Shown: positions 4,656 to 21,711 of the stretch, one piece after another
Position numbering within the stretch: position 1 is the first letter of the stretch
How the letters are laid out: each line of letters starts with the position of its first letter
IMG/VR virus record: IMGVR_UViG_3300027963_000322
Location: 1-24,580 of that record
DNA from: a virus
Direction: 5' to 3' (one strand)
DNA: 24,580 nt
Position numbers and translations under genes: made by a program
The notes under the pieces: model-generated
What the model was told of the DNA's origin: nothing
The model's database searches: none
Seen by the model: the letters and a program-made list of their open reading frames with translations, nothing else

Positions 4656-7600
4656 TAGTTTACAATATTTTCAGTATTTATCCATTTTTGAGTAAATCTA
4701 TCATAAGATGACTTACCTTTTTTCAAACCAAAGAAGAAATGAAATGGTGCTCCAACGGTAACCGTATTTGGATTAGTCCAATATTGTACTTTTGGATTAA
4801 TAATACCATTCGCATCTACAGCATAGATATAACCTTTAAAATTCTTAACAGGTTGACCCGCTTGAGCCCCCATAAAATAGTCACTATTACCTTGTAATCT
4901 ATCTAATGATTGGTATTGATTTGAGAAAAATGCCGGACCATTAACCGGACCTGTTACCCAATTATCATCTTGGTCTCCAAAAATACTATGTGTATTACTT
5001 CTACCAGGACCATTTTGGTCTATATACCACTTATAAAACGGAACAACTTGACTATAAACACCAAAGTTATTAAATGCACAAACATTAGACATATTTACTG
5101 TATCATCAATAATAGTTCTTTTTGGTGTTATAAAATCTCTAACTTGAGTATTAGAAGAAAAGAAGATACCAATAATTGCTTTACTAGAACTCGCACCATT
5201 AAAATAAATTGGTGGTTGTGAACCCGCCGGTGGGTCAGGATAATTAGCCGTATCAAATTCCGCAACACCTAATTCAGAACTAATACCTATCATTTGAGGA
5301 TAGTCGGCATCCGCCTTAAGATTTGGTCTAACACCGAAATACTTACCAATAATATTCTCCCCAATAACAATACTAATTAAACTGTCTAAGAAACTTTTAT
5401 TAATCATTCTACTAATAATATGTAAATTTAAAATGTCTGAAACATCACTAAATGTTGTTGGTGCTAATTTATCCATAACATACCCATCATAGATATCGGA
5501 CATAACTATTTCTTGTAAGTAATAAGTTCTTGGACCTAAATCCATCATTGTTGTTGGATATTTTAAATTAAGAGTATTTTCAACAAAATAACTACCAAAA
5601 AGAAACCCAACAATTCCACCAGGATTAGGTCTATCGGAACCAATAAATTCATTAGTACTAAATTTGTAAGGACTTGACCTATAATAAAATGTTTTTGTTT
5701 GACTATGGAAAATAATTGGCTCCTTACAATGGTCAGATTGAGCTCTATTATTACTATCGTAGTAAGTTGAAGTTTTAAAAGGAAACGCAAATAAGGTACC
5801 GTTAATCCAATTATTGGCAAAACTATCCGACCAAGTATTTCTACAAGCAGCAAAATTAATATTTAACCTTGACTGCCATTCCGGTTGAACACTAAATAAA
5901 TCACCAACCAATGAAAAGAACGGTACTGTCCCAACTAAATAACAACCACCTCGAAAGATACTTTGACCCCAAAAATTATATGAACATCTACCTCGAGACA
6001 CCGTAATTGTATCTCCGTTAGCAACATAACAATCTAAATTAGCCGATTGAGGACAAGTAAAACTTTGAATAAGTGCACTACCCACTGAACTAGAATATGA
6101 TGCCGTTTCAATTGTTGCATTACCTCCCGCGCCAGTACTCACCGGATTAGAACCCGATGTTAAACCAAAGGCAAATACACCACTTCTACTATCCATAGTA
6201 TCCATATAAAAATTCTCATTAGCAAATAACGGAAAACTAAATGTTGAGTCTGTTAAACCATTACACTTATTCCATTGCACACAAGTGGATGTTGGCAATC
6301 TATCTGACCTCATAATTATTTGTCTACCACTAGTTCCCAATCCAAACAACATCTTAACATTTTCATTATAAGAGGGTGATAAATATAATGAAGTAACATC
6401 AATATAAGGATACGGTACTCCTGGAATATTATTAGTGTGTGGTATGTACGGTGTTAGTGTGTTATTTTTATTTGTTCTCATAATTAAAATACCTCCACCT
6501 TCAATAATCTCATCAGGGAAATAACCTCTAGTAACACCAGTGTATGATGGTGTTAATGGTCTATCATTTGACGTTGTTCCGGTAATATTATTATGGGTAT
6601 AATCAAAATAGTCACAACCAAGTATTGGTGACACAGGTAATAGAATTTCCTTAGCTTGACCCCATTCATTAGTATAATCATTATCGTCACCATCAATTCT
6701 TAACCCTGATGTTGATTGATATGAACCACTATTAACATTTTGATTATATGGACCACACCCACCACCATTAAACGCCATTGATAAATTATCTAATGAAGAA
6801 TATAATCTTGGTAAACTACTTGAGAAAGGTTTAAATAACGTAGAATCCGGTTTATAGGTATAGGAATCGTAATAAAGTTTTTGATTCAACGTTGCATATG
6901 TATCTAATGTTGTATTAGTTGACATATCCTGTCTCGTATTTTTAAACCCTCCTTGGATTGGGATATTCAAATGAAATTTAGGGTCGCCTGAAAGTGCTCC
7001 GCCTATTTGAACCGCATCTTCATTTGTATGACCAAATAACCTACCCAAACCATATTTAACATTTACCTTAGGTGAATATGGGTCAACACCCCTAACTAAA
7101 AATACAACAACTAAATCATTATAATTTTTAATCTTACTTATAGGATTTATATATAACGGAGCCTCAGGATTTGATGAAGGATAATTACACCCATTAGCCT
7201 GAAGATGATTAATACGAATTTTATTAGAGAGATATCTCGCATTAAACGAATTCGGTAATTGTGTCACACATTGATTGGTATATGCACTATAGGTCATACC
7301 TGTTAATACTTGGAAATACTCTATATCAATAGGGAATTTATGATAGTCTGTTGACGCAGTAATGTTTAAACCTGTATAATTTGTTGTAGTATTCCCCGAC
7401 CCACTAATATGTGCGTAATTAAGGGTAATTGAAGTTAATGGTAATGTTGTACCTGTAATTGCAAAATTTTGAAATTGATTTTGAACAGCATTAACATTTG
7501 ACAAATACATATCAACATTTATATCCGCAGATGCTCTTGTATCACCTGTTAATTTAGGGTTTTGGAAAGTAATTAAAGTACCGGGTAAAAGTCTATTTAA

Positions 7601-19658: not shown

Positions 19659-20666
19659 CTACTCTTTTTCTTCTTTTTCTTCTTTTAAATCAAAATCACC
19701 ATCAGTACCAATAATTGTTTTCCAATAATCCGCATACTCTTTTTTATATTTTTCAATATTTGATTTTTCTTCTGTTGAGTCTTTACCGGCTAAAAATCCG
19801 TGAGGAGTTACTATAATTTTACCATCTTCATAACCAAGCCCATTTATGTGATTTTTTAAAACCGAAACTTTACTCCTAACAGCAAATTTAATACTTCTCT
19901 TATCTTTGGTCGCAGTTATTTTATTTGTTCCAGCACCTTTTTGATTCCCAAATAAAAACACTAAAGATGAGTTTAACCAAATAGCATTTCCACCCTTCGC
20001 CATAATTTTAGGTTGTCCAAATGGATTATCAGGTAACTCAACCCAAGGTTGGTTTACAATAATCAAAGTATTTTCATATTTTGAATCTGCTTTACGAGAC
20101 CCCGATATTCTTTGATTAATACCCATACCTATTTTATCCGATAATGCCGACGCGTTGTGCATCTTACCACCTTTACCTTCAAAGGTCATTTTACAAGGAA
20201 CTGAACCAACAGAATCCCACATAATACATAAACTATAATCTAACTCACCTTTTTCTTGAGCATCTAATAATGAATTAATATAATCCGTAATTTCCTCAAT
20301 ATAATTAAAATTATTATTGAATATGTAAAATCCATCCCAATCTAATTCTCCGGTTTCTTCATCAACAACTTCCTCACATTGAAAACCCATTAATTTAGCG
20401 TGTTCAAACGACCATTTCTGTTCAGTAATTATGAATACCGGTAAAATACCTTTTTTCTGAGCATCAATAGCAGTTTTTACCAAAGCTGTTGTTTTTCCTG
20501 TGTCTGAATGACCCAAGAACATATTTAAGTGTCCTATAGCCGGACCAGGTAATCCAACAGCATCCAAAAAGTCAGGACCTAAGTCAAAAAAACTTTGTGG
20601 CTTATATTTTGCCGATGTTGAGAATTTGTCCTTAATGGACTTAAAATCGTGTTTTTTAATTGCCAT
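19659..20666 (-). CDS. uvsX: RecA-like recombinase, UvsX-like
   Basis: A 335-residue strand-exchange protein for recombination-dependent replication and repair. Walker A reads GHSDTGKTT (52-60), with a canonical glycine before the lysine. Walker B is CIMWDS (D151). An L2/sensor region reads LIIVNQPW (Q206), as in RecA-family proteins. The DNA-binding region between (about 155-195) is glycine-rich (EGKGGKMHNASALSDKIGMG). The C-terminus is a short charged tail (DLKEEKEEKE). T4 UvsX is 391 residues, so this version is shorter. It lies 96 nt after the gene 32 stop, separated by a strong RNA hairpin. The cooperating UvsY mediator is not recognisable in this window. Confidence 0.95.
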   Translation of the reverse strand: MAIKKHDFKSIKDKFSTSAKYKPQSFFDLGPDFLDAVGLPGPAIGHLNMFLGHSDTGKTTALVKTAIDAQKKGILPVFIITEQKWSFEHAKLMGFQCEEVVDEETGELDWDGFYIFNNNFNYIEEITDYINSLLDAQEKGELDYSLCIMWDSVGSVPCKMTFEGKGGKMHNASALSDKIGMGINQRISGSRKADSKYENTLIIVNQPWVELPDNPFGQPKIMAKGGNAIWLNSSLVFLFGNQKGAGTNKITATKDKRSIKFAVRSKVSVLKNHINGLGYEDGKIIVTPHGFLAGKDSTEEKSNIEKYKKEYADYWKTIIGTDGDFDLKEEKEEKE

Positions 20667-20704
20667 ATATATATGTTAATTTAATTTTTAGTGGTTTTAT
20701 TAGA

Positions 20705-20741
20705 TAACATAGACACGATGTCTATGTTCGTGTCTATGTTA
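20705..20741 (-). repeat. Perfect 14-bp hairpin with a competing alternative fold between gene 32 and uvsX
   Basis: On the minus strand the sequence is TAACATAGACACGA, a 9-nt loop ACATAGACA, then TCGTGTCTATGTTA. The two arms pair perfectly over 14 bp. The loop repeats the nonamer ACATAGACA of the 5' arm, so the 3' arm (TGTCTATGT) can pair with either copy: the long stem, or a shorter 9-bp stem with a TCG loop. There is no U-tract after it (ATCTAATAAAACC), so it is not a standard terminator. It could be an mRNA processing or stability element for the gene 32 message, or a binding site. Confidence 0.9.
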
Positions 20742-20762
20742 AGTAATATAAGTTTTGTTTGA

Positions 20763-21617
20763 TTAGAACGGCATATCATCATCCTCTTCATCTCCCGCTT
20801 GTGGGTCAATCGGAGCCGATGGTTTAGAACCACCAAATGATACTTCAGACTCATCAGAGTTACCATAATCATAACCACCTTTATCAGAGTTCCATTTTGG
20901 AGTTTCACCTCTTGCAATAGCTTCTAAGTATTCAACCGGTTTTTTAGAGTAAACATCTTCCCAAGTCAACTCATCGTTAATCCAACTTTCAGATGTTGTT
21001 TTATTCTCGTGAATAGGACCAGCATCGTCATACATAACTGTTTGAATTACTGTGTAGTAAGCCCCTTTTGGAGTTTTAGCTTTAGTTAATTCAAGGATAA
21101 GGTCTCTACCTTTTTCAGGGTCAGCAATATCTCCTTTGTTTCTGTAGATAGGAATGATTTTGTCATAGATACCTTCATTTTTGTAGTTAGATTTGAATCT
21201 CCAAAATTTAACACCATCTTCTTCGTTATCTCTATCAATAACTTTAACAATGTAAAATTTACGTGCCAAGTAATTTGAAGCTAATTTTTTATCTTCTTCT
21301 TTACCTGTTGAACGTAATTCTTCGTAAACCTCAGTTAAAGGTGAACGTTCATTGTCATTTTTTCCCGGGTCATAAAATTTTTGGAATTTTCCATCAACTT
21401 GAATCTCGTGGTACCAAACTTCTTTAAATGGTGAAGAACCATCTGTAGTTGGTAAGATTCTTAATCTTCTTTGGCCTTGAGTTTCCTTATCTTGAAGGAT
21501 TGCCGCGAAGTATTTTTTCATTCTTTCTTCTTGTGTGAATTTTGAGGTAGAAGAAGAGCTACCTTGTTTTGCTTTCTCGTATTGAGCCAAAACTGCGTCT
21601 AATGAATTTGTCGCCAT
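20763..21617 (-). CDS. 32: Single-stranded DNA-binding protein, gp32-like
   Basis: A 284-residue gp32-family protein that coats ssDNA at the phage fork. The N-terminus (DAVLAQYEKAKQGSSSSTSK) has the helix and Lys/Ser-rich stretch that in T4 drives cooperative binding. The OB-fold core follows: RRLRILPTTDGSSPFKEVWYHEI (50-72), then NYLARKFYIVKVIDRD and VKFWRFKSNY. The protein contains no cysteine; where T4 gp32 has the zinc ligands, this protein has FYDPGKNDNERSPL (81-94). The C-terminus is acidic and ends DEEDDDMPF, much like the tip of bacterial SSB. A good promoter lies directly upstream and a complex hairpin downstream, so the gene is probably highly expressed. T4 gp32 is 301 residues. Confidence 0.92.
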   Translation of the reverse strand: MATNSLDAVLAQYEKAKQGSSSSTSKFTQEERMKKYFAAILQDKETQGQRRLRILPTTDGSSPFKEVWYHEIQVDGKFQKFYDPGKNDNERSPLTEVYEELRSTGKEEDKKLASNYLARKFYIVKVIDRDNEEDGVKFWRFKSNYKNEGIYDKIIPIYRNKGDIADPEKGRDLILELTKAKTPKGAYYTVIQTVMYDDAGPIHENKTTSESWINDELTWEDVYSKKPVEYLEAIARGETPKWNSDKGGYDYGNSDESEVSFGGSKPSAPIDPQAGDEEDDDMPF

Positions 21618-21646: not shown

Positions 21647-21675
21647 AGTATAAGTGTCAGCCGTGTGTTTGTCAA
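21647..21675 (-). promoter_or_regulatory. Sigma-70-like promoter for the gene 32 / replication cassette
   Basis: The minus strand has TTGACA (21675-21670), a 17-nt spacer, then TATACT (21652-21647). This is a perfect -35 hexamer, ideal spacing and a 5/6 match at -10. The predicted start lies about 20-25 nt before the gene 32 ATG and directly after the terminator that closes the previous block. The overlapping TTTG and TACTTTTA could also be read as a Bacteroidota-type -33/-7 pair with 22-nt spacing. Confidence 0.7.
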
Positions 21676-21685
21676 ATTGTTTTGT

Positions 21686-21711
21686 AAAAAAAAGGGCCCG
21701 AAGACCCTTTT
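21686..21711 (-). terminator. Intrinsic terminator with UUCG loop before gene 32
   Basis: On the minus strand AAAGGGTC, loop TTCG, GGCCCTTT (8 bp with one U-G wobble) is followed by eight consecutive T. It lies about 4 nt after the stop of the proline-rich protein gene. It should end the hub-block transcript just before the gene 32 promoter. Confidence 0.92.

Follow-up and report, generated by a model that had tools for sequence, protein, structure and literature searches.

A conserved hairpin between gene 32 and uvsX in T4-like viruses as a possible intercistronic regulator of uvsX

Behind gene 32 of the viral record IMGVR_UViG_3300027963_000322 (positions 1 to 24,580, the stretch that was analysed and is called the window here) lies a 37-nt RNA hairpin that, judging from the substitutions in its relatives, is a real, selected structure. 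Its stem carries compensatory changes, its loop holds a conserved word that in many relatives recurs just before uvsX, it is specific to this interval within phage contigs, and it stands between the two cistrons. A balanced supply is required of the gene 32 product (gp32) and its RecA-like partner, UvsX. We favor, at a probability of roughly 0.4, a reading in which the hairpin works between the cistrons as an operator or attenuator, keeping expression of uvsX below that of gene 32 and under control relative to it, through a putative factor that would repress uvsX and affect the gp32:UvsX ratio.

The element reads TAACATAGACACGATGTCTATGTTCGTGTCTATGTTA in the window and, on the transcribed minus strand, TAACATAGACACGA, loop ACATAGACA, TCGTGTCTATGTTA (Table 1). 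The sequence-only reading had described a perfect 14-bp stem enclosing a 9-nt loop that duplicates the nonamer of its own 5' arm, situated between gene 32 and uvsX on the 3' side of the former; the minus strand bears out the fold, and Pfam and PHROGs bear out the location. The open reading frames that adjoin the two genes match a 5'-3' exonuclease and a DnaB-like helicase. From the gene 32 stop codon it is 21 nt to the 37-nt hairpin and 14 nt to its weak outer extension, which sits where close relatives have an outer stem, TTAGACA/TGTCTAA. The nonamer occurs three times in the window, all within the hairpin, against an expectation of 0.30 and in none of 100 shuffles as often as three times. 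Among perfect stems with loops of 3–14 nt, this is the longest in the window, and in 20 Markov-shuffled windows the longest such stems reach at most 8–12 bp. The interval has a folding energy of -24.3 kcal/mol versus -6.2 for shuffled sequence (z -7.9; equaled by 0 of 200 shuffles). Because the identical hairpin recurs in independent assemblies with near-identical gp32 (L531, L533 and L538), it is not an assembly error. Rfam 15 has no family at or above its gathering threshold for the hairpin, with matches only far below threshold, and a BLAST search against isolated phages returned chance-level matches only. In Flavobacterium phage immuto the element is absent, and the genes for the single-strand DNA-binding protein and the recombinase are 2 bp apart.

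Table 1. Features of the gene 32–uvsX region, in window coordinates
Feature	Position	Strand	Basis
Intercistronic RNA hairpin, 14-bp stem and 9-nt loop, conserved	20705..20741	-	Fold; match to covariance model R1
M1, first copy of ACATAGACA, inside the 5' arm (5' arm, 20741..20728)	20731..20739	-	
M2, loop copy of ACATAGACA, columns 15-23 of alignment A1	20719..20727	-	
3' arm (A), TCGTGTCTATGTTA, complementary to M1, and to M2 over 9 nt	20705..20718	-	
Hairpin with weak outer extension, TATTA (20748..20744) with TAATA (20702..20698)	20698..20748	-	
uvsX leader AACATATATAT, immediately 5' of ATG, decayed version of relatives' AACATAGACAT	20667..20677	-	
Gene 32 (gp32, single-strand DNA-binding protein), upstream cistron	20763..21617	-	PF08804, E=1.4e-11
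uvsX (RecA-like recombinase), downstream cistron	19659..20666	-	phrog_97, E=9e-13
Gene 32 promoter-like site, TTGACA-17-TATACT	21647..21675	-	
Ordinary intrinsic terminator, AAAAGGGTCTTCGGGCCCTTTT and U-tract, upstream of gene 32 promoter	21686..21711	-	

The transcriptional setting can be read from the flanks. Since an ordinary terminator lies upstream of the promoter-like site, the transcription unit begins with gene 32, and nearly all of the relatives' 109 distinct gene 32 leaders preserve the ATTTGAC...TATAMTT arrangement of that site. A scan of the gp32–uvsX interval found no good promoter-like site, so uvsX is most simply transcribed by read-through. In the same 109 leaders the promoter spacer often retains ACGGCTGACACTTATA, beyond what the -35 and -10 elements need, and this is possibly an operator. 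The TAGACA word that is discussed below appears in none of the 109 gene 32 leaders, and we rejected on that ground the idea that it marks an autogenous gp32 leader. As to the host, genes for the ribosomal protein bS21 were found in five of six large close relatives tested (contigs of 272–326 kb; G001, G002, G003, G019 and G020). bS21 is known from jumbo phages predicted to infect freshwater Bacteroidetes (PMC9723584), and by this likeness the window and its relatives are probably Bacteroidetes viruses.

Viral contigs scanned with gp32 and uvsX queries yielded 158 distinct intervals behind gp32, in 120 of which uvsX was detected at most 300 nt away. All 85 distinct short intervals examined directly between the two genes fold into a hairpin, whose stem is 7 bp or longer (median, 18 bp). 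The intervals are of three kinds. First, those of the window's clade have either the window's type of hairpin or a nested pair of stems, ACTTAGACA-TATA-ACTTGGACAC...GTGTCCAA-CT-TGTCTAA. Second, there are loop-type hairpins, most of them 37 nt long and mostly followed by a U-tract. Third, distant lineages have unrelated terminator hairpins with a U-tract. Among relatives the hairpin ends a median of 30 nt before uvsX, and its distance from the gene 32 stop codon varies widely. Some relatives have been remodeled here: in many (for example L299, L170, L148, L124 and L201) hairpin and uvsX are separated by an inserted small gene, whose protein product has a conserved GIGEHPQH segment, and in L024 and L037 (and L154) the hairpin behind gp32 is replaced by an insertion, AACATTTTCCT...AGGAAAATGTT around ATTATGGAGGAAAATG, which is a different long-range inverted repeat ahead of a new reading frame.

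Pairing is maintained across this diversity. Alignment A1 comprises 22 loop-type hairpins, the window's included, hand-picked from the lineages found; 99.6% of its stem cells are paired, and 9 of 12 pairs have changed on both sides. It scores 0.486 for covariation, whereas shuffles give 0.203 and slid partners no more than 0.10; relatedness inflates such scores, yet the slid controls retain the relatedness and score far lower. In alignment A2, which covers the U-less hairpins of the window's clade, 97.6% of cells are paired and 9 of 19 pairs show compensatory change. The sequence-only reading had proposed looking for just such changes and would have given its idea up had relatives shown neither conserved pairing nor a transcript end, processing site or structure signal in the interval; since they keep the pairing through compensatory changes, that ground for doubt falls away. 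The element is also tied to its place. Covariance model R1, built from A1, scores the window hairpin at 54 bits (E=6.7e-12, the window being part of its training set) and finds E<1 at this locus only in 645 kb of phage sequence. The pattern RGACA-N4-CWTAGACA-N2-RTGTCY has at least 120 matches in IMG/VR; no fewer than 94 come directly after gp32, with uvsX following in 83 of these, and a control pattern with the spacing off by 1 nt (N5) has eight.

What is conserved in the hairpin, besides the pairing, is the single-stranded loop word (C/T)(A/T)UAGA(C/U)A. The core positions T18, A19, G20, A21 and A23 of A1 are at least 90% conserved among the 22 hairpins, and the unpaired TAGACA columns carry 1.73 (T18), 1.47 (A19), 1.47 (G20), 2.0 (A21), 1.43 (C22) and 1.56 (A23) bits, with just 0.25–0.64 bits in the adjacent unpaired columns 13, 24 and 25. 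In L327 the arms are unrelated (GGGTAGGTAC), the loop still reads TATAGACA, and CATAGACA stands ahead of uvsX. Together with the column conservation, this suggests that the loop sequence is recognized as such. Slow decay of an ancestral sequence is not impossible as an alternative; the depth of the gp32 tree makes pure inertia unlikely. The word is present also where gp32 precedes a gene other than uvsX. A recent duplication within the hairpin, which had been offered as one origin of the repeated nonamer, is unlikely, as the loop word is old and present where the arms differ from it; the window's perfect identity of arm and loop arises where the arm happens also to read CATAGACA.

A further copy of the word, CAUAGACA, lies directly ahead of the uvsX start codon in most lineages with a word-bearing hairpin. 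It takes the form CATAGACA (or CTTAGACA) 0–3 nt before the ATG in L067, L071, L073, L077, L122–L128, L178, L187, L327 and many close relatives, its sequence constant while the gap varies. Of 51 distinct uvsX leaders that follow a gp32 hairpin with CWWRGACA, 31 have it, as against 4 of 34 after a hairpin lacking CWWRGACA; with no gp32 detected adjacent to uvsX, at most 2 of 72 have it, and one of those two, L130, does look gp32-adjacent. These sequences are not independent, and the co-occurrence is due in part to the ancient shared ancestry of the interval. On the gp32 tree the leader word requires at least four changes on well-supported branches. Some lineages that retain the loop word have no leader word (L141, L170 and L305), and in L299 CATAGACA precedes the inserted GIGEHPQH-protein gene rather than uvsX. 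In the window itself the leader copy, which in relatives overlaps the ribosome-binding region, has decayed to AACATATATAT. A general phage translation-initiation motif was considered and rejected, because the word is not enriched before other reading frames: in seven contigs of 15–69 kb, uvsX is the only one whose leader has WWRGACA in its last 14 nt, and in a 322-kb contig (320 kb examined) it is among 5 of 405. Other matches to the word in large contigs are mostly coding.

In the reading we favor, gene 32 would be read from its own promoter and the transcript would continue through the hairpin, whose selected stem would present CAUAGACA as a single-stranded loop. In many relatives, hairpin and U-tract should terminate part of the transcripts, as an attenuator; in the window's clade the hairpin would act in the read-through mRNA, because the U-tract is absent there. 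The CAUAGACA repeat 0–3 nt before the uvsX AUG would lie where the initiating ribosome must bind, and a single factor acting in trans, probably an RNA-binding protein of phage or host, would bind both loop and leader copy and block uvsX translation, in the way that gp43 acts at its T4 operator. UvsX, gp32 and host proteins are candidates for the factor, which need not be specific to uvsX since the loop word also stands before other genes and the compound hairpin described below occurs in unrelated phage loci. Bacteroidia hosts do not use Shine-Dalgarno pairing (PMC9976891), which would make the sequence just before the AUG a plausible site of control. With its leader copy decayed, regulation in the window would rest on the hairpin, and as the U-tract is missing as well, the role of the element is less certain in this phage than in the family. 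In the literature library searched, no paper connects uvsX with a translational operator, and a search with the word itself gave matches that look like primer sequences.

Several other explanations deserve consideration. The first, which we judge rather unlikely, is a plain intrinsic terminator or attenuator behind a strongly expressed gene 32, with the loop and leader words as inherited by-products and with termination weakened in the window's clade for more uvsX message. Gene 32 has its own promoter, of the 48 distinct intervals from beyond the window's clade, 32 show a U-tract behind the stem, and relatives with other genes downstream of gp32 often keep both hairpin and U-tract. Against this, the U-tract is missing in all 37 distinct intervals of the window's clade, where the stem is nevertheless kept by compensatory change, and termination requires neither a conserved loop word nor the same word before the next start codon. 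The window element, moreover, has a G+C content of 35%, low for the G+C-rich stem of an intrinsic terminator; there is no U-tract beside it on either strand; its tail, UCUAAUAAAACC, has at most one U in each 8-nt stretch tested; and a terminator scan gives no site here. The earlier statement that simple termination is unlikely for want of a U-tract is thus supported throughout the clade, in which the hairpin is, on this sequence evidence, not a simple terminator.

Second, the 3' arm could alternate among the 5'-arm, loop and uvsX leader copies of the word as an RNA switch, driven, for example, by the ribosome finishing gene 32. This extends the central proposal of the sequence-only reading, and we find it improbable. 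Formally, either copy within the hairpin is open to pairing with the 3' arm, and in principle each of the three is complementary to it; several gp32 lineages and unrelated loci share the perfect M-N3-M-N3-A form, and in A1 the pairing of loop with 3' arm slightly exceeds that of shuffles (78.3% versus 74.0% of cells; score, 0.197 versus 0.150). The two folds are, however, far apart in stability (-18.1 versus -10.0 kcal/mol), not comparable as in a switch, and they are not both conserved, with 99.6% of cells paired in the main fold versus 78.3% in the alternative. One pair of the alternative helix is an A.C mismatch in 17 of the 22 A1 sequences, the arm being mostly GGACA and the loop AGACA, the opposite of what a switch requires, and the stop codon-to-hairpin distance varies widely, which also counts against switching. 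Nor does bistability fare better when extended to the leader: in a non-redundant set with leaders swapped between genomes, uvsX leaders were no more complementary to their own 3' arm (-6.67) than to permuted ones (-6.61; p 0.44), and we rejected the idea that the 3' arm pairs with the leader.

Third, and similarly improbable, the hairpin could serve in mRNA processing or 3'-end protection, blocking 3' exonucleases or being cut, so that gene 32 would end up on a stable message and uvsX on a message of its own. In favor of this role, the hairpin is strong, borders on its 3' side a gene in very high demand, is conserved in position and can dispense with the U-tract; in T4, no mRNAs are more stable than the gene 32 transcripts, which RNase E processes (PMC3014915). 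But the explanation predicts neither the conserved loop word nor the copy before uvsX. Finally, a function at the DNA level, with CWWRGACA as inverted or direct half-sites for a DNA-binding protein or as a recombination or priming palindrome, is very improbable: there are two to four half-sites within ~100 bp, but at gp32 the hairpin and loop word read in the sense of the neighboring genes, opposite-orientation matches turn out to be gp32 intervals with four nested arms or gp32 ends in reverse, the spacing of the arms is not constant, and ahead of uvsX the copy lies across a ribosome-binding region and not a promoter.

The perfect form of the hairpin, ACATAGACA-N3-ACATAGACA-N3-TGTCTATGT, occurs on 27 IMG/VR contigs. 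About half of these are gp32/uvsX sites, including some whose gp32 is only 57–62% identical to the best query, and the remainder include sense-oriented sites ahead of unrelated genes. At the jumbo-phage loci L434, L522, L527 (of which L537 is a copy) and L534, the hairpin lies behind a 9-codon reading frame that ends in RAPP or RAPT; L488 (L528 is a copy) has two hairpins in a row, and L536 is a further sense-oriented site. Matches inside open reading frames (L435, probably L532/L539 and several bacterial ones) were left out of the count. The seven pattern matches in bacterial genomes are not clear cases, several being apparently in or near coding sequence. In L540, L545 and L546 (Bacteroidetes metagenome-assembled genomes), L435 and L532/L539, the CATAGACA repeats may encode protein, such as HRQxHRQxVYV or NIDxxIDTMSML, and may be chance look-alikes or a repeat protein. 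It is conceivable that word, 3 nt, word, 3 nt and reverse complement define an undescribed family of sense-oriented phage RNA elements at unrelated intercistronic sites, served by one common host or phage RNA-binding factor. We regard this as doubtful, because the search fixed the sequence, that of the loop included, at the loci other than gp32; if it holds, it would point to a shared regulatory factor.

A separate observation concerns pth2, the peptidyl-tRNA hydrolase gene, in large phages. In L434, L522, L527, L534, L528/L488, L566 (LR756500.1, 462 kb), L567 (LR756501.1, 735 kb), L568 (Tenacibaculum phage pT24) and L569 (LR745206.1), the PTH2 frame (PF01981, E=1.9e-9 for L527) has an in-frame amber as its third or fourth codon, with Ile or Val next (ATG-x-TAG-ATT...). 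L434, L522, L527, L534 and L528/L488 have no alternative start codon in the next 25 codons, the annotated pth2 coding sequence of pT24 begins further in, and a tRNA with anticodon CUA is often nearby (in L434, Pth2 starts at ~5958, the uORF at ~5254 and the tRNA-CUA is at 6018-6091, all minus; positions at the pth2 locus are 7393+ and 7755+ in L527, and 11364+ and 12289+ in L534). From its sequence this looks like an amber-gated gene, perhaps autoregulated. Behind pth2 in L434, L522, L527/L537, L534, L488/L528 and L566 is a tiny reading frame with an early amber and an end resembling the RAPP arrest motif: MK(TAG)IIRAPP, MM(TAG)ILRAPP, MM(TAG)IYRAPP, MR(TAG)IIRAPT, MKAHW(TAG)INPRPP and, in L566, MK(TAG)IKITIRGPTYLF. 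The frame varies synonymously at third codon positions. It comes right after pth2 in L566, and directly before the hairpin in L434, L522, L527/L537 and L534; it is followed by the M-M-A hairpin and by repeats that close just before the ATG of the next gene. This geometry could be that of a translation attenuator gated by amber read-through. RAPP arrest peptides are already known (PMC10951233, PMC10987492).

An operator or attenuator between gene 32 and uvsX would bear on the gp32/UvsX balance in T4-like phages of hosts without Shine-Dalgarno pairing, and a conserved element whose loop word matches a word at the uvsX start offers a concrete target for mutation and a bait for the regulator. The closest worked-out case is the operator of T4/RB69 gene 43, which encodes DNA polymerase, where a hairpin with a conserved loop lies ~40 nt upstream of the start codon and a second site overlaps the ribosome-binding region (PMC3014915). 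In both systems a replication gene is preceded by a hairpin with a conserved loop and by a sequence at the ribosome-binding region that is recognized at gene 43 and putatively so in the relatives here, where the word abuts the AUG, though in the window it has decayed; the median of 30 nt between hairpin and uvsX compares with ~40 nt at gene 43. In contrast to the monocistronic leader of gene 43, however, the element here stands between two cistrons, its loop and leader share one word, its sequence is unrelated, its regulator is putative, and in relatives it often doubles as a terminator. T4 gene 32 is itself under autogenous post-transcriptional control through a leader pseudoknot and unstructured leader (PMC3014915, PMC535899), and our element is likewise a candidate for post-transcriptional control at gene 32 of a T4-like phage, but the T4 operator lies 5' of the gene and the hairpin here lies 3'. 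With intrinsic terminators the element shares a position directly after a stop codon and, in most lineages outside the window's clade, a U-tract; it departs from them in the conserved loop word, the low G+C content and the U-less state of the window and its whole clade. T4 RegA, finally, acts at protein sites next to the AUG in competition with the ribosome (PMC3014915), and the putative site before uvsX adjoins the AUG in the same way; RegA sites, though, are unstructured, A+U-rich, variable and spread over many genes, whereas here one fixed word at one gene is joined to a hairpin.
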